In this document: piece after piece, positions 12,208 to 37,648 of the stretch
Layout: the number at the start of each line of letters is the position of its first letter
Position numbering within the stretch: position 1 is the stretch's first letter
Virus record (IMG/VR): IMGVR_UViG_3300025141_000297
Coordinates: 1-37,648 of that record
From: a virus
Direction: 5' to 3' (one strand)
Length of the DNA: 37,648 nucleotides
Position numbers and translations under genes: made by a program
The notes under the pieces: model-generated
Told to the model about the DNA's origin: nothing
Database searches by the model: none
The model's input: the letters and a program-made list of their open reading frames with translations, nothing else

Positions 12208-12877
12208 TCAATGCCTCCGCATCTTTAAGAAACATTTGAACAGTCTCTTTAGTATACGGATGTACATACATACCTTCTAGTATGTGTGGAGGCACTGTAA
12301 CTATGTGTGCTCCATTCTCCAACCATTCCATAACATTAAACTGCTCTCTTACTGAACCTACAATTATCTTAGCTGGTAAATCATGTTCTACAAGTAATAT
12401 TCTAAGTTTAGCGATTTCTTTTTTAGAATCGTAACCCATATTATTTACTCTTCCTCCAAATAAGGAAACATAACTAGCCCCAGCACTTGCGGCTAAATAA
12501 CATTGCTGTACACTCATCATTGCTGTAACATTCACTTCTATACCCTGTTGACTCAAATCATTAATCAACTTGAGATTAGGTTCACCATTAGGACCATGTA
12601 TAGTTATTTTAATATTTATATTCTCAGCCCAAGTAGAAAACTCAACTGCTTGTTCAAAAGCTTCTTGTGAGTCATTTGTAGTTACTTCTACAGACACTGG
12701 GTAAGGATTAACTAATTCACATATCTCTACAATAGTCTTCTTTATATCTGTGTTCCCATCCTTTTTCATAATAGTAGGGTTAGTTGTTACGCCACGGATG
12801 ATTCCCATTTCGTGGAATCTTTTTATTTCCGTGACGTCAGATGAATCTAGGAAGATTCCTTCAATATCCATCTTCAT
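12200..12877 (-). CDS. Transaldolase / fructose-6-phosphate aldolase-like enzyme
   Basis: From ATG 12877 this gives 225 residues, the normal size of the FSA/TalC family. Visible are the N-terminal Asp strand (IFLDSSDV), the signature GVTTNPTI, the Schiff-base Lys in NIKITI, the SLFGGRV strand and a C-terminal VTVPPHIL. It should cleave or form C-C bonds of sugar phosphates through a Lys imine. An upstream in-frame ATG (12934) would lengthen it by 19 residues inside the neighbouring gene; I prefer 12877 because GGAGA lies 6 bases before it. Virus-borne transaldolases are known from marine cyanophages; this one sits in a glycan cassette instead. Confidence 0.85.
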   Translation of the reverse strand: MKMDIEGIFLDSSDVTEIKRFHEMGIIRGVTTNPTIMKKDGNTDIKKTIVEICELVNPYPVSVEVTTNDSQEAFEQAVEFSTWAENINIKITIHGPNGEPNLKLINDLSQQGIEVNVTAMMSVQQCYLAASAGASYVSLFGGRVNNMGYDSKKEIAKLRILLVEHDLPAKIIVGSVREQFNVMEWLENGAHIVTVPPHILEGMYVHPYTKETVQMFLKDAEALNE

Positions 12878-14237
12878 GCCATCTCTCCGAGAATTGTTTT
12901 TTCTGATTGTCATAGGGATATGTAGTCCAATCATAGGTAGGCCATTCTAAGTCAATACCCTTTCTAGGGAAAGACTTGAATATCTTTTTCTTCCATTTAT
13001 TACTTACTGCCATTGTCTCTTCCATGAAAGGTGCATCATCATATAAATACCTCTCAGGCATTAATAGATACTTCTTTATTGAAGGGTCGAACCTTGCATA
13101 GTAATGTGCAGCAATATAAGTTTCAGTTCTAATAAAACAATCATAGAGATGGGATAGTTCCACTTTCTCTATATTGAGTTTCTCATGTAAGCCTTTATCT
13201 TCTAAAGGTATATCAAACAACTTAATCAAGTCTGCTCTATGACCCCAATATAAATGGTCACGAGGATGGAAAGGGAAGTCCTTGAAATAACCTGCTGTGA
13301 ATATTCTAGCTTCTGCACCAGTTGGTATTGCTTTATCATAATTAGCATTAAAGAAGTCATTCATTGCTATCATACTCTCTTGAGTATAACGCTGGTCATT
13401 TCTCATCTTTACTACATATGTTGCAGAGGTTTGTTTTACTCCAGCTAAAGAAGAAACTATCTGTAGGTTCCTATTACCTGTACCACTACTATCTGGTATT
13501 GGACTTTTAACTACTCTTATTCTATCATGATTAATCTCTGGAACAATATCATCTTCCCAACAAGATATAATTACCTCGTTAACAAAGTTTAAGTCTAGAT
13601 ATTGATATGCAGTATCTAAAGCATAATCACTATATGGTCCTTGTAAAACTATATCTAACTTACCATGAACTAAACACTGAGATATATTATATTCTATCAT
13701 ATCTCTATATTCATCACAGACTGTAGGGTCTTCTAATAAATTTCTAAAAGCTTCTCTACATTCATTAAATCTACCTACATGCCACAGACTTACTGCATAT
13801 TCAAATTTTAATTGATATATACCTTTATAACCTACGTCAGTGTATAATGGGTCTATATCTTCTTTGTTTACTATTTGAAAGTTTCCTAACTGTAATCCCA
13901 TTTTAGCATAAGCCATACCTTGTTTATGCATAGCTTGTGTTCCATAGAACTGAGCTAATGCATGATATGCTTCTACACGATTAGGCAACAAGTCTATTGC
14001 CATTAATAGTGTATTCTTTTCATGGGTCATTCTTTCTCCCTGTGCACCAAAACACTTAGCTATTCTAAGTAAACATTCATACTGTAATTTCTTTTCAGTA
14101 GTTTTGTCAACACAACTATAGTAATAACCTATAGCTGATGCCCATTGGTCTATCTTCTCGTATTCAAATCCAACATCAAAATTCTTCTCGGGATGTTGAG
14201 TATCATATATAAACTTTTCTAATTGGTCTTGTAACAT
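12861..14237 (-). CDS. TPR-containing WavE-like glycosyltransferase
   Basis: The first ~190 of 458 residues are helical repeats of TPR type (AYHALAQFYG, YAVSLWHVGRF, CREAFRNLL). From residue ~195 the protein resembles the WavE lipopolysaccharide-synthesis family: DIVLQGPY, then IISCWEDD, then GTGNRNLQI and YVVKMRNDQ, with FHPRDHLYWG further on. It probably transfers or trims sugars on a surface glycan. TPR-to-transferase fusions are common in viral and marine surface-glycan clusters. The start forms a TAATG overlap with the preceding gene. Confidence 0.7.
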   Translation of the reverse strand: MLQDQLEKFIYDTQHPEKNFDVGFEYEKIDQWASAIGYYYSCVDKTTEKKLQYECLLRIAKCFGAQGERMTHEKNTLLMAIDLLPNRVEAYHALAQFYGTQAMHKQGMAYAKMGLQLGNFQIVNKEDIDPLYTDVGYKGIYQLKFEYAVSLWHVGRFNECREAFRNLLEDPTVCDEYRDMIEYNISQCLVHGKLDIVLQGPYSDYALDTAYQYLDLNFVNEVIISCWEDDIVPEINHDRIRVVKSPIPDSSGTGNRNLQIVSSLAGVKQTSATYVVKMRNDQRYTQESMIAMNDFFNANYDKAIPTGAEARIFTAGYFKDFPFHPRDHLYWGHRADLIKLFDIPLEDKGLHEKLNIEKVELSHLYDCFIRTETYIAAHYYARFDPSIKKYLLMPERYLYDDAPFMEETMAVSNKWKKKIFKSFPRKGIDLEWPTYDWTTYPYDNQKKQFSERWHEDGY

Positions 14238-15899: not shown

Positions 15900-15931
15900 T
15901 TTTATTTTCACTAAATACTATTAACATGTCT

Positions 15932-15947
15932 GAGTATTTAAGGGTTT
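15932..15947 (-). promoter_or_regulatory. TATA promoter of the leftward 9.3-15.9 kb operon
   Basis: Minus-strand AAACCCTTAAATACTCA is a TATA box about 28-40 bases before the GTG/ATG start choices of the DUF1599-like gene. No later promoter is evident until 9292, so it may drive the carbohydrate genes and the nuclease. Confidence 0.5.
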
Positions 15948-16209
15948 CTATTCTCTGTCTTAATATATATCTTAATATAGCATAGTAGCTCTACCAAGTG
16001 TTAACACTACTTAGCATAATTAAGGTTCAAAATTTCAGTCGATGTGTAAACCCCCCTACGCGCCGTTTTTGAATGGGTGGGGCCTTCTTCGTTTAGACGG
16101 GGGATATCAAAAGAAAAAACAAAGATAAGCATTAAAAAACATGAGCGGGATTTATTCCTTTATATACTCAATATTTAATTTTATATCTCTCGACGATAGG
16201 CTATACCCA
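15948..16209. other. Divergent intergenic region with palindrome and origin-like motif
   Basis: AT-rich stretch without a credible gene. It holds a perfect 12-base palindrome AGTGTTAACACT (15998-16009), flanked by TAGCTCTACCAAG and CTACTTAGCAT, which resemble the 16-base repeats near 21.4 kb. TCTTAATATA motifs occur twice just before it. A CTCTCGACGATAGG motif lies near 16187, and similar CTCGACG motifs recur near 19.9 and 21.1 kb. The region separates leftward and rightward transcription. Confidence 0.5.
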
Positions 16210-16226
16210 TAAGCTTATATATAATA
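16210..16226 (+). promoter_or_regulatory. TATA promoter of a two-micropeptide operon
   Basis: AAGCTTATATATAATAT lies about 30-45 bases before ATG 16256, with a GAGGT site between. Confidence 0.5.
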
Positions 16227-16255
16227 TAGCTAATGGTATATTAGAGGTAAAAGAT

Positions 16256-16363
16256 ATGACAACAACAATGACCCCAAAGCAAGCACATGCAATATGGAAG
16301 GCTACAAGTAGAGTAGCTACCAAGACAAGACATTCAACTTGGATGCGAAGAGGAGGTGCATAG
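16256..16363 (+). CDS. 35-residue basic micropeptide
   Basis: Short ORF (starts MTTTMTPKQAH) with Arg/Lys/Thr-rich sequence ending RRGGA. A promoter and GAGGT site precede it, and a second ORF beginning ATGACAAC follows 2 bases after the stop. The AGGAGG at its 3' end would serve the second ORF. Coding status rests on this arrangement only. Confidence 0.4.
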   Translation: MTTTMTPKQAHAIWKATSRVATKTRHSTWMRRGGA

Positions 16364-17122: not shown

Positions 17123-17440
17123 TTATAAATTCTCCATGTATCCGATTTCAATCATTGGGTCCTCTGGGGTTGTATTCCATTGGTTAGCTTCAACGCTTGG
17201 GTAAAGTTTAAACTTTGCTCCGACGCTGTTAATTGCGTCCCAAACTTCGCCGTCGTCAAGACTGCCGTGTTTGGTTCCGAAGCTGTGTAAGTTTGCCCAG
17301 CCTACGGTGTGACAGTAAAGGCTATTTGTTCCTTCCATTCTGGAACCCAATACTTCCACATAAAAGTTGTGGATACTCATCAATCGACCTTCCCAGTCGA
17401 CGAAGCCGGTTTTATTAGTTTGATACGTTTGTGTTGTCAT
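17123..17440 (-). CDS. Small protein, unknown, first gene of leftward operon
   Basis: 105 residues, rich in Trp, Tyr, Gly and His, of mixed alpha/beta appearance (KTGFVDWEGRLMSI, VGWANLHSFG, EVWDAINSVG). A GAGGTAATT site precedes the ATG and a TATA promoter lies ~45 bases upstream. No membrane segment or known motif; likely an early or accessory cytoplasmic protein. Confidence 0.65.
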   Translation of the reverse strand: MTTQTYQTNKTGFVDWEGRLMSIHNFYVEVLGSRMEGTNSLYCHTVGWANLHSFGTKHGSLDDGEVWDAINSVGAKFKLYPSVEANQWNTTPEDPMIEIGYMENL

Positions 17441-17480: not shown

Positions 17481-17497
17481 AGTATATAAAGCTTTGC
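17481..17497 (-). promoter_or_regulatory. TATA/BRE promoter of the 17440-16600 operon
   Basis: Minus-strand GGCAAAGCTTTATATACTT has the same CAAAGC(T/C)TTATATACTTTG core as the promoter at 18378-18394. The two promoters belong to a duplicated intergenic block. Confidence 0.65.
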
Positions 17498-17530
17498 CTC
17501 TAATACATATATAAAGGTCCTCTACCCTTA

Positions 17531-17562
17531 TATACTGCGTTATATCTCCCGCTCACTATTTT
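17531..17562. repeat. Duplicated intergenic block, copy A
   Basis: TATACTGCGTTATA...CCGCTCACTATTTT here recurs as TATAGTGCGTTATA...CCGCTCACTATTTT at 18428-18459. Both copies lie between a leftward TATA promoter and a GCCATGGC repeat, so the whole block looks duplicated. Confidence 0.6.
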
Positions 17563-17604
17563 TGATAAATTTCCCCAGCTCCCGCCTCACAAATCAAAAA
17601 AATA

Positions 17605-17631
17605 AATTTTGCCATGGCTAAAAATTTTTTT
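17605..17631 (+). repeat. GCCATGGC/T-run repeat, copy 2
   Basis: AAATTTT, GCCATGGC (17611-17618), then TAAAAA and T7. It precedes the structured region that begins near 17640. Confidence 0.8.
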
Positions 17632-17639
17632 AGGTTACC

Positions 17640-18172
17640 CTAAACATTGTTAATCATAAGATGTCGATTGGGGTGCCCCAGAACCCCTCACGCTAACCAC
17701 GGGCTTCCAACCGCGGGTGTTCGAATCACCCCAGTCACACACGCCCTAATGTCCCTAACTGATTAGGAAGCAACATTCTTGACTTGTGTGCTGTTTTACG
17801 CTTCGCCATTCGTTGTCCGGCGACCGACATTATTTTAATTCGGATTATACCCGAATCTTAAAACCCGTGCACGGGCATAAGTGTAAAAATAATTCCTTAG
17901 GGTTGTAATACTATTTTACTATTTTCATCCTTTTAAGTCTAATTTCTAACGAAAGAAATTAAGTTCCCCTAAGGGTGTGAGGGAGGGTTCAAGGTTAACC
18001 TCCAAAGACTACCGGCCCAAATACCTAAGTATTGTCCGCACTTACCACTCACCACCTCCTCAGACACTTGTCCGTTGGAGCAGGTTATTGTGTGCCTTAC
18101 CCCCTTTGGGAAGGGGTTATTCAGCCACTCACGATAAGAGAGAGCTACTCTCTTAAATCTAATTGCGTATGA
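17640..18172 (+). ncRNA. Structured non-coding stretch A
   Basis: About 530 bases with no credible ORF but many clean stems: CCTAAT/ATTAGG (17753-17768), ATTCGG/CCGAAT (17838-17856), the palindrome CCCGTGCACGGG (17864-17875), CCTTAGGG/CCCTAAGG (17895-17974) enclosing AATTTCT/AGAAATT (17941-17960), CCCCTT-TGGG-AAGGGG near 18102-18117, and TAAGAGA/TCTCTTA (18135-18155). The density of perfect stems suggests a large RNA. The strand is uncertain; plus-strand TATA-like boxes lie near 17510-17535, while a minus-strand gene at 18343 could read through. Not a family I recognise. Confidence 0.45.
17663..17738 (+). other. tRNA-like element (T-arm and acceptor-like ends)
   Basis: GGGTG-TTCGAAT-CACCC (17715-17731) is a perfect T-arm with the consensus loop. 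GATTG (17666-17670) pairs with CAGTC (17732-17736) just outside it, and GGGGT/ACCCC (17670-17687) gives a D-arm-like hairpin. Between them, CCACGG and CCGCGG flank an 8-base loop containing TTCC. The D-loop lacks GG and there is no variable loop, so it is not a standard tRNA. It could be a tRNA-like domain of RNA A, a decayed tRNA, or an attachment site derived from a tRNA 3' half. Confidence 0.35.
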
Positions 18173-18343
18173 TTATAACAAGCTACTGTCACGAAGTAGA
18201 CGATTAACGCCCCACTTCTTGATTCTTACAAGCCTTGCTTGAATCTTCAAAGGTTGCTTGTAGAACGTCTCAAAGTCGAGTGCTCCACCGTTTCCCTTGT
18301 AGTTGTGCCAGTTGCTCATTATTTGGTTTTCGTATTTGTTCAT
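18173..18343 (-). CDS. 56-residue basic protein, unknown
   Basis: Small ORF (MNKYENQIMSNW...) with Tyr/Trp/Asn in the first half and a basic amphipathic second half (KIQARLVRIKKWGVNRLL). A GAGGAAAAC-type site precedes the ATG, and a TATA promoter lies about 38 bases upstream. The basic C-terminus would suit nucleic-acid binding, possibly at the adjacent repeat zone. Confidence 0.6.
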   Translation of the reverse strand: MNKYENQIMSNWHNYKGNGGALDFETFYKQPLKIQARLVRIKKWGVNRLLRDSSLL

Positions 18344-18377: not shown

Positions 18378-18394
18378 AGTATATAAGGCTTTGG
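18378..18394 (-). promoter_or_regulatory. TATA/BRE promoter of the 56-residue gene
   Basis: Minus-strand CCAAAGCCTTATATACTTTG, nearly the same as the promoter at 17481-17497. Confidence 0.6.
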
Positions 18395-18403
18395 GTCATT
18401 TTA

Positions 18404-18431
18404 GTATATAAGGGTCGAGGGGGTATATATA
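18404..18431. repeat. 28-bp perfect direct repeat, copy 1
   Basis: A TATATAAGG box, GTCGAGGGGG and TATATATA in tandem; identical to 18546-18573. It runs into block B of the duplicated intergenic unit (18428-18459). The TATATAAGG parts could be rightward TATA boxes or protein-binding sites. Confidence 0.8.
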
Positions 18432-18480
18432 GTGCGTTATAGGTTCCGCTCACTATTTTCGGCGCAAAAAAAAATAAAAA

Positions 18481-18505
18481 TCGCCATGGCCAAAAATTTT
18501 TTTTT
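18481..18505 (+). repeat. GCCATGGC/T-run repeat, copy 3
   Basis: Preceded by an A-rich tract, then GCCATGGC (18483-18490), CAAAAA and T9. It lies between the two copies of the 28-bp direct repeat. Confidence 0.8.
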
Positions 18506-19112: not shown

Positions 19113-19250
19113 ATGATAGAAATAGGAACCGTAACCTTTAATAAGGAGTTAGTCGATAAACTAATTCAAAAAGGTTTCGAAGAAGACGATGAAGCACAGG
19201 AGCTGGTTTCAGGGGCCGAATCCCGACCAGCTCCCAAGAACAAGGCCTAA
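19113..19250 (+). CDS. Small acidic protein, unknown
   Basis: 45 residues beginning MIEIGTVTFNKELVDK, with an acidic middle and a basic Pro/Lys tail. Last gene of the 18634-19250 operon; a strong terminator-like hairpin begins before its stop codon. Confidence 0.5.
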   Translation: MIEIGTVTFNKELVDKLIQKGFEEDDEAQELVSGAESRPAPKNKA

Positions 19251-19309
19251 GCTCAGTCATTAATGTGACGCTCTTAGGCCAGCGCTCACTCAGGCAAATC
19301 TTATTTTTT
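19244..19309 (+). terminator. Hairpin plus T-run terminator
   Basis: GGCCTAAG (19244-19251) pairs perfectly with CTTAGGCC (19273-19280); inside it GTCA/TGAC can pair too. A T-run (19301-19309) follows and leads into GCCATGGC copy 4. Confidence 0.6.
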
Positions 19310-19346: not shown

Positions 19347-19373
19347 AACCTTTAAATAGGGGGACTCTATTGG
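19347..19373 (+). promoter_or_regulatory. TATA promoter with TATTGG initiator; leaderless gene
   Basis: AACCTTTAAATAGG with the TATA box starting at 19351; TATTGG starts exactly 17 bases later (19368). ATG 19380 lies 29 bases after the box begins, so the mRNA probably starts at the ATG or a few bases before. Confidence 0.65.
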
Positions 19374-19379
19374 TATTGT

Positions 19380-19508
19380 ATGAGTAAAATACAAGAGATG
19401 AGAAACGATTTTCGTTTCAGGAGAGCCCCACGCCGAACAATTCAAAAGAATAAAATTGATTCTGGTGTGTTAGAACAAATTGAAGCACAGAAGAGAGGGT
19501 TAGCATGA
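19380..19508 (+). CDS. 42-residue basic protein, unknown
   Basis: Starts MSKIQEMRNDFRF and is Arg/Lys-rich (RRAPRRTIQKNK), likely nucleic-acid binding. Leaderless by promoter position. The stop overlaps the next start by ATGA. Confidence 0.55.
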   Translation: MSKIQEMRNDFRFRRAPRRTIQKNKIDSGVLEQIEAQKRGLA

Positions 19509-20630: not shown

Positions 20631-21012
20631 ACAGAGCTCGTATAATCGGGACCGTAAGTTAAGTCACGCATTCGCACACTAAAGAAACAACCGTAATTTG
20701 AACACGCGCACATTTCCCTCCGTCAATCCGTTAGTCCCTTATTGAGGTGGCGTCTTAAATAGAAAACTTCAGCCTCTTTTCAAACTAACGTGCATCACGC
20801 GACACTTCCCTCCGTTTGAATCATTTACGAAGGTCGTTTCTCTGTATGTATCGTCTGACAGCACTTGCTTGTGTAATAACCTGACTGGAAACGGTTTGTT
20901 ATTACGCGGTCCCAAAACCTTATAATGACTACTGGTCTAAACAGGAGGGGTTTAAAGCGGGACGCCCGACCCTAATTTATTAGGGACCCCTCCGACGTGA
21001 CCTATTTTTTTT
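20630..21012 (+). ncRNA. Structured non-coding stretch B with duplicated module
   Basis: No credible ORF. A module is present twice: CACGCG then TTCCCTCCGT at 20703-20723 and again at 20796-20815, with equal internal spacing. The flanks differ but still pair: TTGA/TCAA in the first, CAAAC/GTTTG in the second. An 8-bp perfect stem GTAATAAC/GTTATTAC lies at 20873-20905. The stretch ends in the branched hairpin and T-run at 20944-21012. A rightward RNA of ~350 bases is plausible. Confidence 0.45.
20944..21012 (+). terminator. Branched (three-way) hairpin followed by T-run
   Basis: Outer stem GGAGGGGT/ACCCCTCC (20944-20951 with 20986-20993) encloses CGGG-ACG-CCCG (20958-20968) and CCCTAA-TTTA-TTAGGG (20970-20985); a T8 run follows from 21005. 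The form is close to that of the leader at 6640-6706. Confidence 0.55.
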
Positions 21013-21300: not shown

Positions 21301-21380
21301 CCTATATCTATTTATTTTGCCTGTTATATGTGTGAACAGAGCAAAATACTTATATACACCCATTAACTATATATTATAAT

Positions 21381-21417
21381 TAAGCTCTACTAAGCAATTA
21401 ATAAGCTCTATTAAGCA
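21381..21417 (+). repeat. 16-bp iterons, copies 2 and 3, in an AT-rich stretch
   Basis: TAAGCTCTACTAAGCA (21381-21396) and TAAGCTCTATTAAGCA (21402-21417). The flanks from 21340 to 21480 are almost pure A/T with TATATCTTAATATAG motifs, suitable as a DNA-unwinding element. Confidence 0.65.
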
Positions 21418-21484
21418 TTTTACTTATATCTATATTATAGCTCTTAATTAATCTATATCTTAATATAGTATAATATAGGAGTCT

Positions 21485-22397: not shown

Positions 22398-22580
22398 ATG
22401 GGACTAATAAGTGATTATGATTTTGGCTTTACTGAATGTGAAGTATGCCAAGAGAGAGCATCTATACGCTTCGAGTCGGTTCTTCTATGTGAGAATTGTA
22501 TGGAAGATATAAATGAAGGAGGATACGAAGATTTTGTATCCGCTAAACCTGTGATAAAAGGAGAAAAGAAATATGAGTGA
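22398..22580 (+). CDS. Zinc-ribbon protein
   Basis: 60 residues with C14-x2-C17 and C31-x2-C34 in a typical zinc-ribbon frame, then a short acidic/basic tail. It overlaps the ligase start by 8 bases. May assist nucleic-acid transactions. Confidence 0.65.
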   Translation: MGLISDYDFGFTECEVCQERASIRFESVLLCENCMEDINEGGYEDFVSAKPVIKGEKKYE

Positions 22581-23478
22581 TATAAGGCCAGACCTAATGG
22601 ATAGGCCAAAGATGGATGAGATAAAGTTTGAAGGCTCTTCTACTGAGATTCCTGATAAGTATGATATAGTCCAACTAAAGATGGATGGTATGTATGGATG
22701 GTTAGATATACAGAAGGGTCAGTATACTATTATGTCACGAACCGGAAAGATAAAAGAAGAAGGTGTGTGGCCTAACGAAAGAGATAACTATATCTTAGTA
22801 GGTGAATGGATGGCAGGTAGTCATTGGGCTAAGCGTCAAGAAGATGAAACATATGAAAGAAGATTCTATGCCTTTGACTGCATATATAGTAGAGGGTATA
22901 ACTTAATACACAGAAAAGAAGAACTATATACGAGACGTAGCTACTTACGTAGAGCTGTCTCTAAGTTAAGAGATAGTAGATATTGGCATGAAGATGAAGA
23001 ATGTGAACTGCCTATCATTAAAGAGGTTCAAACCTTTAGTCAAAGAGATTGGTATGACGCATGGTATGATTATATCATAGAAAGAGGATATGAAGGTCTT
23101 GTCTTTAAGAACCAACTGACTAAGTTTGATGATAGTGAGTGGGCACGTATGAAGAAAGAGATAGAGATGGACTATATCTGTGTTGGTTTCGAACCAGCGG
23201 ATGATAAGAGTAAGTATAAAGGATTAGTAGGTGCAGTAAAAGGAACACTTATTGATAAAGATGTTATAGTAGAATGTGGTGGATTGACTGATGAACAAAG
23301 ACAGGAGTATACTACTAACGCTGAGAAATATAAAGGTCGTATATTTACAGCTAAAGGTAATGATTGGTATCCGTCGGGGTCAATCCGTCACCCTAAGTTT
23401 AGAAGATGGAGAGATAGTAAGACACACTATGAGTGTTCATATGACCAAGTGCCTTATAGTATAAGGTGTGACGATTGA
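22573..23478 (+). CDS. ATP-dependent DNA ligase
   Basis: 301 residues carrying the covalent-nucleotidyltransferase motifs: motif I KMDG with the adenylated Lys36, Arg in SRTGK, motif III LVGEWM, motif IV YEGLVFK and motif V region WARMKK. After about residue 200 there is an OB-fold-like C-terminal part. It seals nicks using ATP; size and lack of extra domains match minimal viral ligases. An RNA-ligase activity cannot be excluded. It lies in the replication arm, as expected. Confidence 0.9.
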   Translation: MSDIRPDLMDRPKMDEIKFEGSSTEIPDKYDIVQLKMDGMYGWLDIQKGQYTIMSRTGKIKEEGVWPNERDNYILVGEWMAGSHWAKRQEDETYERRFYAFDCIYSRGYNLIHRKEELYTRRSYLRRAVSKLRDSRYWHEDEECELPIIKEVQTFSQRDWYDAWYDYIIERGYEGLVFKNQLTKFDDSEWARMKKEIEMDYICVGFEPADDKSKYKGLVGAVKGTLIDKDVIVECGGLTDEQRQEYTTNAEKYKGRIFTAKGNDWYPSGSIRHPKFRRWRDSKTHYECSYDQVPYSIRCDD

Positions 23479-24551
23479 GTTTCTTAAGAGAAGCATATAA
23501 AATAAGATATAAATTGGAAAAAACAATGAGTAGAGACGAATATAGAGATGACGTAGGAGGCTATCCTGAGTCATCCGAGTTAGAAAGGGATACCCCCGAT
23601 GAAGCGGTAGATATAGAACATGAAGGATTAGACGAATTGTTCGGAGAAGTAGAGAAGGAAGATAAGCCTAAAGAAAAGCCTATACCTAAGATAGATAATT
23701 CGGTGATAGGAAAACTCAAAGCATCTGTTAAAGTGCCAGAAGAGTTTAAGTTCACTAACAATATGACATTCTATACTATGTTAAGGAATATCTTTAGAGG
23801 TAAGTATATACTCGTGACAGGACCATCCGGTTGTGGTAAGAGTAGTCTCGGTAAGATATTAGCTGATATAACAGGTAAAGACTTCTATGCCTTTAACTTT
23901 GGGGATACAATGAATCCATCCGCTAAATTATTGGGTGATACTAAATTCGATAAGGATAGTGGCACGTGGTTTCAACCATCACGATTCGTGTCAGCTATCC
24001 AAAATAACAGCTTTGTTATGCTTGACGAAGTCACGAGAGATAGGACAGGTGACTTAGGTAATATCCTTATGCCTGTATTAGATGGACAGAAGTATTTAGC
24101 TTTAGATGAAAGTGATAGTGCTGATACAGTAGAGATAGATAAAGATGCGTTCTTCTATGCTACTGCTAATATCGGTAGAGAATACTTAGGTGCATCCCAT
24201 GATTTAGATAGAGCATGGAAAGATAGATTTACGGGTGGTATATATGAATTGGATTATCTACCACAAGGTAAAGAACAAGACCTTATAATGATTCGTGTTC
24301 CAAGCGTAGACCCAGAAGATGCGAGACGTATAACTGAGTTTACTAAGAAGATTAGAGATTTATATAAGGCTGAAGAGTTAAACGTAGCAGTATCTACAAG
24401 GATGGCTATAACTACTGCTGAGTTAGTAGTAGATGGTATGTCACTATTAGATGCACTTAAGCATACGTGTCTACCTTTCTATCCGGTTCAAGGTGGAGAT
24501 GATACTGAACGTGTTAAGGTTATACAGGCTATACAGTCTATGGGTGAATAA
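23475..24551 (+). CDS. MoxR/CobS-like AAA+ ATPase
   Basis: An acidic N-terminal extension (residues ~18-80) is followed by an AAA+ core: Walker A GPSGCGKS (116-123), Walker B FVMLDEV, a sensor-1 Asn in YATANIG, and an Arg-rich DRAWKDRF. It resembles MoxR/CobS/CbbQ ATPases, which remodel proteins together with VWA partners; that partner is encoded two genes on (24907). I list the TTG start, which makes a TTGA overlap with the ligase stop; ATG 23526 would remove 17 residues. Confidence 0.85.
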   Translation: MSFLREAYKIRYKLEKTMSRDEYRDDVGGYPESSELERDTPDEAVDIEHEGLDELFGEVEKEDKPKEKPIPKIDNSVIGKLKASVKVPEEFKFTNNMTFYTMLRNIFRGKYILVTGPSGCGKSSLGKILADITGKDFYAFNFGDTMNPSAKLLGDTKFDKDSGTWFQPSRFVSAIQNNSFVMLDEVTRDRTGDLGNILMPVLDGQKYLALDESDSADTVEIDKDAFFYATANIGREYLGASHDLDRAWKDRFTGGIYELDYLPQGKEQDLIMIRVPSVDPEDARRITEFTKKIRDLYKAEELNVAVSTRMAITTAELVVDGMSLLDALKHTCLPFYPVQGGDDTERVKVIQAIQSMGE

Positions 24552-24553
24552 GA

Positions 24554-24931
24554 ATGGTAAGAGTAAAGAAAAGTCTATATTGGCATCAAACAGCTGAGTA
24601 TCTCTTAGCTAATGGTCTATCCCCATCTGAATGTGGAAAGGTAATAAAACAGGCTTTCCCACATACAACAGTTAATGGTAGACATGTCGGTGCATATAAG
24701 CGTAGACTGATAGAAGAAGGTAAGTTAGATAAGAACACACCTAAGACATTGAGTGTGAATGAAGCATATACTGTTATCAAGGGATTGATAAGTAAAGATG
24801 ATAAGTTCATATATCAATGTTCTATTGGTGCACAAAAAAGAACATTAAAGTGTTTTGAATATAAAATGACTATGGAAGCTAAGTCAGACGAAGAGGATAT
24901 AGACGAATGGATAAAGAATATGGCGATATAG
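24554..24931 (+). CDS. Small protein between MoxR and VWA genes
   Basis: 125 residues. The N-terminal ~60 look like a DNA-binding or adaptor helix bundle (TAEYLLANGLSPSECGKV, then GRHVGAYKRRLIEEGKL), and the C-terminal half is mixed alpha/beta with an acidic end. It starts two bases after the MoxR stop and overlaps the VWA gene by 25 bases, so it may belong to the same complex. No family recognised. Confidence 0.65.
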   Translation: MVRVKKSLYWHQTAEYLLANGLSPSECGKVIKQAFPHTTVNGRHVGAYKRRLIEEGKLDKNTPKTLSVNEAYTVIKGLISKDDKFIYQCSIGAQKRTLKCFEYKMTMEAKSDEEDIDEWIKNMAI

Positions 24932-27051
24932 ATAGTTGGATAGGTGAAGATGACGATGACTATTGTTATGCCTGTGATGATTGGGTAGAGGATGATGGTC
25001 ATGGTAATTGTAATACCTGTGGAGTATCTTTTACATCAGTAGACCCCTTTATCTCTAAAGAGACTGCACTAACGCATAGTAGTTCATCACCTAAGGTAAA
25101 CACATATACAGGTGATATGTGGAATAGAGGTGGAGCATATACGTGGGGTAGTGGACAATCATGGTGGCAACGTGGTGTTAGTGGTATAACTGACCGCATG
25201 AGTCCTATGACTTCAATGTGGGGTGGTAGCTGGTCTACCGGTCATTCTACTGATGCTGGTCGTATGCTTAGACATAAGAGACATTTAGATTCTCTATGTA
25301 AAGTTGTAGACCCAACAGTAAAACATACTTTAGACTTTGCTTACGAGAATGGTAGGAACTATTCCAATATAGCCAATGGGCGTATTGTTATAGATGGTAG
25401 TCTTATTAAGGATAGTGATGATAACTTAGATATATGTGCAGGATTGTCTATACATGAAAAGTTACATCTTATTCATACTCAACCCTGTAAGGATTGGGAA
25501 AAAGAGTATCAGTTAGAGCATCATCTTACTATGCCTGAACAGAAACTATTACATAATATCGTAAACATAATAGAAGATGAGTATATAGAAAAGCAGTTAT
25601 CTAAAGACTGTGCAGGTTTTGTTAGTTATATAGATAAGGTAAAAGAACATTTCTTTGAGAAGAATAAAGACCTTATATCAAAACCACATAAAGATGAGTT
25701 CTTAGATGTTATCAATACATTGTTAGCATTTGTAAGATACCCAGCCTCTATTGATAAAGATAGAAGGAAGCGTCATGCTAAGCATATAAGATATTTTGCT
25801 AAAGCATTACAACATGGTCTTGATGATAGAGACTCTACATATAAAGCGTTTAGTTCTATATTTCAGTATATGAAAGCTCTATGTGAAGAGTTAGCACCTG
25901 ATGATGAAGAGGCTATGAAAGATAAACTCGAAAGTGCTATGAAAGAGATAGAAGATAGATTGGGTGATATGCTTTCTAAAGATGAGATGGATAAAGTCCG
26001 TGAACAAATGAAGAAGGACTTAGTTAGAGATATGATGAAGAAAGGTAGTCCTCTACAAAGGGCTATGTATGATGATGGTCATATGGATAGTATAGAAGGA
26101 ATGGCTGACTATACTAAAGAATTAGAATCTGAGTTAGATAAAGCATTAGCTGACGCTATCAAAGAGTTAGAAGATAGTGATTATCATGAGACTACTTTAG
26201 GTAAGGATAAAGTATTATATCCTAAACAAACTAAAGTTACATGGAGGACTGCTATGCCTAACGAACATGAAAAGGGAGTATATAAAACTGAAGTTAAACA
26301 GATGAAGCCCGTGATTAACTCTTTAAAGAAGAAGATTAATCTATATGGTAACACACAGAAGTATACCATAAGGAATCAAAAGAGAGGTAAGCTCGATAAA
26401 AGAGTATTACATCGTATACCTATGGGTTCACGTGAACTATTTAAGTGTGACTTTAGTAAAGAAGATAAACCTTTAGATATATGTATACTCGTAGATGAAT
26501 CGGGTAGTATGAATAGTGGTTGGCGTATGACTCATGCAAGGCAATCCGCTATCGCTATCAAAGAAGCTTTAGCTGATAACCCTAAGCTCAACCTATGGGT
26601 ATATGGACATACTGCTGATGGATATGATGATTGGCATAGTGATAAAGGTTCTACTAATATGACACAATATTGGGGACCATCAATGAAAGATAGGCCAATG
26701 GCTATGGGTGGTATGAAAGCTCGATTTGAAAATAGAGATGGTAATGCTATATGGTCCTGTGCTGACAAAGTATCTAAAGAAAGTGACCAACCTATGTCTA
26801 ATAAACTAATGATAGTTCTATCTGATGGACAACCAGCCGCACATAGATATGGCGGTGACGGGGCACGTAGGCACGTTAAAGGTATAGTTCGAGAGTTAGA
26901 AAGTAAAGGATGGAGTATCATACAGATAGGGTTTGGTGGTGCTACTGACTACTATATGGATAAGATGTTTAATAACTACATGCATATTAGTGACACTAAG
27001 GATATACCAAACAAGTTAAGTAAAGTGATGAAAAGAGTGATGAAACTATGA
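24907..27051 (+). CDS. Zincin-VWA protein (CobT-like), partner of the MoxR ATPase
   Basis: 714 residues. The N-terminus has a zinc ribbon (C20-x2-C23, C35-x2-C38). Residues ~183-187 are HEKLH, a true HExxH metalloprotease motif, with the acidic IIEDEYIE about 40 residues later as a possible third ligand. A Lys/Glu/Met-rich helical middle (~320-470) leads to a C-terminal VWA domain with the MIDAS DESGS (~520) and VLSDGQ. CobT-like VWA proteins with CobS/MoxR ATPases are known in tailed phages; the added HExxH and zinc ribbon suggest a regulated protease. Confidence 0.85.
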   Translation: MDKEYGDIDSWIGEDDDDYCYACDDWVEDDGHGNCNTCGVSFTSVDPFISKETALTHSSSSPKVNTYTGDMWNRGGAYTWGSGQSWWQRGVSGITDRMSPMTSMWGGSWSTGHSTDAGRMLRHKRHLDSLCKVVDPTVKHTLDFAYENGRNYSNIANGRIVIDGSLIKDSDDNLDICAGLSIHEKLHLIHTQPCKDWEKEYQLEHHLTMPEQKLLHNIVNIIEDEYIEKQLSKDCAGFVSYIDKVKEHFFEKNKDLISKPHKDEFLDVINTLLAFVRYPASIDKDRRKRHAKHIRYFAKALQHGLDDRDSTYKAFSSIFQYMKALCEELAPDDEEAMKDKLESAMKEIEDRLGDMLSKDEMDKVREQMKKDLVRDMMKKGSPLQRAMYDDGHMDSIEGMADYTKELESELDKALADAIKELEDSDYHETTLGKDKVLYPKQTKVTWRTAMPNEHEKGVYKTEVKQMKPVINSLKKKINLYGNTQKYTIRNQKRGKLDKRVLHRIPMGSRELFKCDFSKEDKPLDICILVDESGSMNSGWRMTHARQSAIAIKEALADNPKLNLWVYGHTADGYDDWHSDKGSTNMTQYWGPSMKDRPMAMGGMKARFENRDGNAIWSCADKVSKESDQPMSNKLMIVLSDGQPAAHRYGGDGARRHVKGIVRELESKGWSIIQIGFGGATDYYMDKMFNNYMHISDTKDIPNKLSKVMKRVMKL

Positions 27052-36682: not shown

Positions 36683-37648
36683 TCAAAGAACTATTGATTT
36701 AAGAGATAGTAGTTTAAAGGTTAAGATATATAGGAATAGTGAAACCGAAGCTGTAAAATCTCCTTACAGACCATATTATTATCTTCCCGGTGAAGGAGGA
36801 GATGAGTATAAAGTAATTGCTTCAGATAAAACAGTTAAGTTATCTAAACATAATTACTTACCAAGTAGAGATATATTACCTCCTACTGCTTTATTTGAAG
36901 GTGGTAGGGAGGCTATACTAGAAAGGTTATTGATAGAACATCCTGACTTCTTTAGTCAGTTTCCTAATACAGATGATTTAAAGACATTGGTATTTGATAT
37001 TGAGACTCATTCACCTGATGGTTCCTTTCCCTTTGGAGAAAAATATCCAGTGGTAGCTATTGGTATCGTTACAAGTAGTGGTGAGAGAGAAGTATTATTA
37101 TGGGATGGTGAAGATGATAGAGATGTTATACTTAAATTTGCTGAATATATTCATGATTATGACCCTGATGTTATTGTAGGTTATAACCTCGTTGGGTATG
37201 ATATACCTCAAATATTACATAGAGCTAGTTTCCATGGACTTAAAGGGTATAAAAAGATACTTAACAGAGATAATAGTGAGTGGGGTTGGGAGACCCCTGA
37301 GAACCAAAAGGAACTTAAGATGAACGCTGGAGGGCGCATAGTCCTCGATTTACTGCGCTGGACACGACTCGATTACTCCCTATCAGGCATACCCCGTGGC
37401 CTGAAGAGCGTGTCTAGGAACTTTGGTCTAGACCCTATCGAGCTTGATTTTGCCGATAAGGATTTATTAGACTATACTATGGAAGAGATACATGATTATG
37501 TATTAAGTGATGTAGATGCTACAATGTATTTATATAATCACTACTTCCCACAAATCCAGTATATCGCTGAGACTTTATGCGTTCCTCTGGCAACATATGT
37601 CAATGCTCCATCAAGTTATATTACCAAAATTTTACAAGGTAGGAGCTT
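36654..37648 (+). CDS. polB: Family B DNA polymerase, N-terminal part (cut by window end)
   Basis: Open to the window edge (332 codons visible). After a ~110-residue N-terminal domain comes the 3'-5' exonuclease: Exo I FDIETHSP, Exo II IVGYNLVGYDIPQI and Exo III YVLSDVDATMYLY, with all three acidic catalytic residues. The polymerase motifs lie beyond the window. It would be the viral replicase with proofreading. The CAGGAGG site precedes ATG 36654 well. The stretch 37320-37460 uses noticeably GC-richer codons than its flanks. Confidence 0.9.
   Translation, partial: MKVPLIATINQRTIDLRDSSLKVKIYRNSETEAVKSPYRPYYYLPGEGGDEYKVIASDKTVKLSKHNYLPSRDILPPTALFEGGREAILERLLIEHPDFFSQFPNTDDLKTLVFDIETHSPDGSFPFGEKYPVVAIGIVTSSGEREVLLWDGEDDRDVILKFAEYIHDYDPDVIVGYNLVGYDIPQILHRASFHGLKGYKKILNRDNSEWGWETPENQKELKMNAGGRIVLDLLRWTRLDYSLSGIPRGLKSVSRNFGLDPIELDFADKDLLDYTMEEIHDYVLSDVDATMYLYNHYFPQIQYIAETLCVPLATYVNAPSSYITKILQGRS

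Follow-up and report, generated by a model that had tools for sequence, protein, structure and literature searches.

The window analysed here, a 37,648-nt stretch of DNA from a marine virus, contains a region (17640-18172) in which no frame stays open for more than 68 codons. Comparison with related viruses strongly supports the reading of this region as a minus-strand locus of three RNAs in a row, M, H and X, which begins 16 nt past the stop codon of a 56-residue open reading frame (Table 1). Judged by its match to a covariance model, M is manA, an RNA already known from phages, and H and X are, on the same kind of comparison, new and outside Rfam. The initial annotation had described one large non-coding structured RNA and left the strand unstated. 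The stems it named are present, with CCTTAGGG at 17895 pairing with CCCTAAGG at 17967 and enclosing AATTTCT (17941) and AGAAATT (17954), TAAGAGA at 18135 pairing with TCTCTTA at 18149, and the 12-base palindrome CCCGTGCACGGG at 17864. Its coordinates were also nearly right, as the RNAs span 17656-18155 on the minus strand. The structured RNA locus is upheld by covariation in related viruses, while the single large RNA gives way to three separate modules, one of them from a known family. The minus strand folds better than its dinucleotide shuffles (z -3.50, with 0 of 100 shuffles as good); the corresponding plus-strand values are z -2.57 and 1 of 100.

Table 1. Features of the RNA array and its flanks (positions in the window)
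Feature	Position	Strand	Basis or remark
TATA-box promoter AAAGCCTTATATAC	18379..18392	-	43 nt before the start of the 56-residue ORF
Small ORF, 56 residues (MNKYENQ...DSSLL)	18173..18343	-	net charge +6; ribosome-binding site
Module M, manA RNA (RF01745)	17972..18155	-	covariance-model match; covariation in 9 sequences
Module H	17895..17974	-	outer stem CCUUAGGG/CCCUAAGG, 17967-17974 with 17895-17902
H inner stem	17954-17960 with 17941-17947	-	AATTTCT/AGAAATT of the initial annotation
Spacer hairpin before X	17864..17875	-	12-base palindrome; read by eye, unscored
Module X, new structured RNA, ~200 nt	17656..17856	-	alignment, RNAalifold, covariance model R1
X parts: hairpin P0; P2 with conserved loop; P3 enclosing P4-P6	within 17656..17856	-	
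X closing stem P1	17823-17828 with 17663-17668	-	
X hairpin P5	17715..17731	-	plus-strand reading resembles a T arm, GGGTG-TTCGAAT-CACCC
T-run CCTAAAAAAATTTTTAGCC after X	17617..17634	-	possible transcription end; terminator role inferred
TATA promoter of next minus-strand gene (ORF 17123-17440)	17482..17495	-	

The assignment of M depends on both the window and its relatives. At Rfam cut-offs no family scored high enough in the stretch; once the cut-off was lifted, the manA model RF01745 alone matched anywhere in the window with E no higher than 1, covering model positions 1-192 (its full length) on the minus strand with 49.6 bits and E 6.2e-10, under the curated cut-off of 55.2 bits. The match takes in manA's closing stem as well as its conserved CUGAAUAA...UAAGG stretch, and the first hairpin of M is the TAAGAGA/TCTCTTA stem. 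Ten related virus loci were found through a neighbouring protein (ORF 17123-17440), three of them with manA above the cut-off, and the 16 records finally collected all have TerL in common (66-100% identity). RF01745 matches 10 of these 16 at E<=0.01 and exceeds the cut-off in four (55.4-63.9 bits); a sequence profile adds an eleventh manA-bearing record, L011, and finds none in the other five, most records being fragments. Three of 50 further TerL relatives also match, all above the cut-off (62.6-69.2 bits). Since relatives match the model, some of them above its threshold, the window copy is, on these comparisons, a manA RNA belonging to a divergent branch. In an alignment of nine copies, 95.2% of cells are paired and, of 46 pairs, 25 show changes on both sides; the covariation score is 0.423, against 0.155 in shuffles (0/500 as high), the paired structure having been taken from RNAalifold rather than from Rfam.

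Module H, whose 5' arm has 3 nt in common with the tail of manA, corresponds to the CCTTAGGG/CCCTAAGG helix and matched no Rfam family in the window or the relatives tested. Its core, GAUGAAAAUAGYAAAAUAGUAUURC, is almost invariant, and its outer stem of 7-9 bp is formed in 11 of 11 copies by varied, compensating letters, such as CUUAGGG/CCCUAAG, GGCAGGG/CCCUGCC and GGAAAGGG/CCCUUUCC. A script located these stems directly in the sequences, as the MAFFT alignment misplaces the 5' arm of short copies. The inner hairpin is present in seven copies and absent from four. H, like the module tails, may resemble the 3' end of 16S rRNA. By profile, H occurs in 12 of the 16 records and is missing from four, with the same proviso that most are fragments.

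Module X is found in 16 of 16 records, which is not an unbiased count, as the 15 records besides the window were also matched by X patterns; two DNA patterns, drawn from separate parts of X, found 14 contigs apiece, 13 of them common to both. Among 14 distinct aligned copies, RNAalifold gives 46 pairs, 32 of them changed on both sides, with 97.7% of cells paired and a covariation score of 0.571; shuffles gave 0.191 (0/500 as high) and slid structures 0.055-0.100. Long loop sequences are kept invariant, and the support from covariation is good enough for a family model and structural work. At the place of the spacer hairpin, L005 and L012 have other letters that are, by eye, also self-complementary. 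A model built from the X copies, R1, scores 130-202 bits within the virus group and 30-34 bits in three of the 50 further TerL relatives, which carry a divergent, 113-nt X lacking P4-P6. Rfam returned nothing for X, either in the tested loci (E up to 5) or in the window (E up to 1), and a pattern search of cellular genomes gave 0 hits. Among 120 listed manA loci of other marine viruses, nhmmer found neither X nor H, and R1 reached at best 10.7 bits, none convincing. M and X are alike in starting with a hairpin, being closed by a long stem and having a similar tail, and no sequence or model link between them was found. The strongly conserved pairing that the initial annotation had proposed to look for across related viruses exists, no protein gene was found in the stretch, and a core shared with the two other candidate structured stretches it had marked in the window is not indicated by the M, H and X profiles, each of which matches the window once.

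The tRNA-like 5' end that had been reported for the stretch proved to be a chance resemblance, arising when hairpin P5 of X is read as plus-strand sequence. That hairpin does look like a T arm, and a plus-strand tRNA-like or tmRNA-like element would account for it; we give this explanation almost no credence, as ARAGORN and Rfam both found no tRNA or tmRNA when a cloverleaf with acceptor stem and T arm was sought, and the letters of P5 differ among relatives, whose alignment does not keep the TTCGAA loop. This candidate was rejected.

The pairing rules themselves indicate the strand. Read on the minus strand, the pair cells of X include 78 G-U and 2 A-C combinations, and those of M 32 and 1; this fits RNA read from the minus strand, and a plus-strand reading turns the wobbles into mismatches. 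Module orientation also equals the direction of the upstream reading frame in the arrays examined. Both observations speak against the idea that the stretch is a DNA-level element of inverted repeats, be it a replication origin, a packaging site or a recombination hot spot, as its palindromes and the repeated promoter units flanking it might suggest. With pairing changes that obey RNA rules on one strand, we consider this a very improbable explanation.

The order of the modules varies among relatives. M-H-X is found in the window, in L004 with an extra module K, in L005 followed by tRNA-Glu, and in L012 followed by the small hairpin module N; L008 and L009 have P-M-X-N, with P another small hairpin. 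X-H precedes tRNA-Glu in L011, where M lies elsewhere, and X-H is also found in L006; X stands alone in L007, with M and H elsewhere, and L017 has K-X-tRNA-Glu, with M-H-N elsewhere. H-X occurs in L140 (then tRNA-Glu), L146 and L147, and P-X in L148. In total, tRNA-Glu directly follows X or H in 4 of the 16 records, and M and H also stand alone elsewhere. Hence each module is a unit that moves or is lost independently of the others. Module K comprises ~80 nt common to L004 (4690-4770) and L017 (4486-4406), directly before X. P and N flank manA or X arrays in relatives, and are conserved on the plus strand of the window at ~19202-19237 (inside an ORF end) and 19244-19283, the site spanning 19205-19283. 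Other intergenic blocks conserved in at least four relatives lie at 15916-16262, 19352-19478, 20879-21005, 21316-21479 and 36993-37642.

The place of X behind a small gene is more constant. All 14 distinct X arrays are preceded, on the same strand and at a distance of at most about 110 nt, by the end of a small ORF that has a ribosome-binding site. The encoded peptide has a net charge of +6 or more in 12 of the 14, a value that just 4 of the window's 48 comparable small ORFs attain, and mostly has 27-34 residues, the window's having 56. In 13 of the 14 arrays, two TATA boxes 25 bp apart precede the ORF start, the second box of the window lying 25 bp further upstream of AAAGCCTTATATAC. The exceptions are L004, with a peptide of only +3, and L148, where both a clear basic peptide and the TATA pair are missing. 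The divergent short X of L269 and L270 again follows a peptide, of charge +8. A second peptide, of 22 residues and close to MNKYQSSLLTWLVGISYATRKL, is encoded just before the RNA array in six loci (L269, L270, L140, L146, L147 and L012), two of which are those with the divergent short X, and is little changed among these divergent viruses. Pfam and PHROGs gave no match for any of four peptides, including that of the 56-residue ORF. The association with basic peptides could be chance clustering, considering the two exceptions and that small viral proteins are often basic.

Archaeal promoters have a BRE/TATA consensus, and the corresponding AAAGCTTTATATAC-like pattern occurs five times in the window, with 0.13 expected. 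The portal protein matches 12 phage records, all from haloarchaeal tailed viruses. Together these suggest that the host is probably an archaeon. Other genes have different affinities: TerL matches bacterial phages, with just two haloarchaeal records among 130, and bacterial phages are also matched by a relative's DNA polymerase and ribonucleotide reductase. PCNA, sought as an archaeal marker, was found in 0 of 9 records; the capsid protein had no match in phage records, nor was there any DNA similarity in them, and 86 stretches found by TerL pattern in cellular genomes included no relative. The window also encodes a WavE-like protein (12861-14237, minus strand), an ATP-dependent DNA ligase (22573-23478) and, on the plus strand, a CbbQ-type AAA ATPase and CobT-like vWA protein as a gene pair (23475-24551 and 24907-27051). 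A promoter/terminator unit, made up of a CGCTCACTATTTT block, a GCCATGGC palindrome and A/T runs, is repeated at 17529-17631 and 18426-18503, the copies being 88-89% identical and about 870-900 bp apart, with further copies in relatives; a 36-nt unit similar to CCTAAAAAAATTTTTAGCC recurs at 18468-18503.

The setting of manA here departs from that seen elsewhere. In the part of Weinberg et al. (2010, PMC2864571) available to us, manA is described as commonly lying in potential 5' UTRs and as a riboswitch candidate. A pattern scan of other marine viruses gave at least 120 manA loci, 94 with enough flank, and in 86 of these 94 listed copies an ORF begins no more than 120 nt downstream, compared with 551 of 1180 random places; a late-promoter-like TATA lies within 35 nt upstream in 65 of the 94. 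Of the 120 listed loci, 11 have a tRNA on the same strand no more than 1.2 kb away. An alternative is that manA, and perhaps X, is a cis-regulatory 5' leader of ORF 17123-17440, in keeping with Rfam's classification of manA. Yet in the present group only 3 of 12 copies have a near ORF start and 0 of 12 such a TATA directly upstream, the usual 5' UTR place being replaced by one behind stop codons. Furthermore, the modules swap neighbours freely, and in the window the next ORF lies ~200 nt beyond X, past T-runs and a strong TATA promoter, so that the array is not simply the leader of a gene with its own promoter. We therefore regard a leader role as unlikely.

Instead, we consider it somewhat more likely than not that the array is the 3' part of a minus-strand unit, transcribed with the peptide mRNA and processed into RNAs that act in trans, likely as a ribonucleoprotein with the peptide. 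The TATA promoter (~18390) would drive the small basic-peptide gene (18343-18173), then manA, H and X, with transcription ending near 17620; the upstream promoter would thus serve the peptide mRNA and the array together, and manA would be a module of this array rather than a riboswitch-like 5' leader. The transcript would then be cut into stable small RNAs, a step that the tRNA-Glu after X or H in four relatives must undergo too. These RNAs may act in trans during infection, most likely joined in a ribonucleoprotein by the basic peptide whose gene lies directly upstream. Of this proposal, the sequences themselves show the array and its strand, structures that covary, modules that move as units, and X arrays always found behind a small ORF.

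The main rival to processed, trans-acting RNAs is pure 3'-end protection, under which the modules would be 3'-UTR stability elements that shield the small-peptide mRNA from exonucleases and have no separate function as free RNAs. X arrays indeed begin only a few to ~110 nt past a stop codon, and the small hairpins P and N occupy similar places, including in the window. An ACCUUA-like tail is also shared, following M or X in 13 of 23 cases, which are related copies rather than independent counts; the background is 1.5% of the 22-nt segments of the window. However, the long invariant loops of X exceed the needs of a mere roadblock, and H and manA are also found alone elsewhere. We consider protection a real but lesser possibility.

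As regards the processed RNAs that we favour, the modules need not work together, as 5 of 16 records are without manA and four without H, although most records are fragments. A more speculative extension, to which we attach a rather low probability, is that X forms the RNA core of a viral ribonucleoprotein that is self-contained and that H and manA can optionally join; a basic peptide of 27-56 residues and the folded RNAs it binds would be encoded on one transcript, and the particle would act on the host translation machinery, a target proposed because tRNA-Glu recurs in the arrays. The set of partners for testing manA is small and well bounded, comprising H, X, tRNA-Glu and the basic peptide, and the locus illustrates an unexplored kind of viral RNA cassette.

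This cassette has partial counterparts in known systems. The wcaG-manA-abiF cluster of cyanophage S-CREM1 likewise places manA beside structured RNAs, within ~800 nt, in the portion of that report available (PMC9964418); its neighbours there are wcaG and abiF, neither of which matches in the window. GOLLD and ROOL, large phage RNAs near tRNA islands, are similarly large, ornate, viral and often near tRNA genes, as far as the accessible text describes them (PMC12286853), whereas X has ~140-200 nt and lies behind a small-peptide gene, and the GOLLD and ROOL models matched neither the window (E<=1) nor the relatives tested. RF01745 itself, on the lists since 2010, is classed as a regulatory 5' leader and has no known function, and the parts of the literature on the manA RNA, motif or riboswitch available to us mention neither a tested function nor an archaeal virus. 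The window copy shares with it the whole-model match, the closing stem and conserved stretch, and a marine virus setting; it differs in a score below the curated cut-off, in probably belonging to an archaeal virus, and in lying behind a stop codon within an RNA array rather than at the 5' end of a transcript. Here manA appears as an exchangeable unit, found behind stop codons with two undescribed RNA families, which argues for an autonomous RNA.
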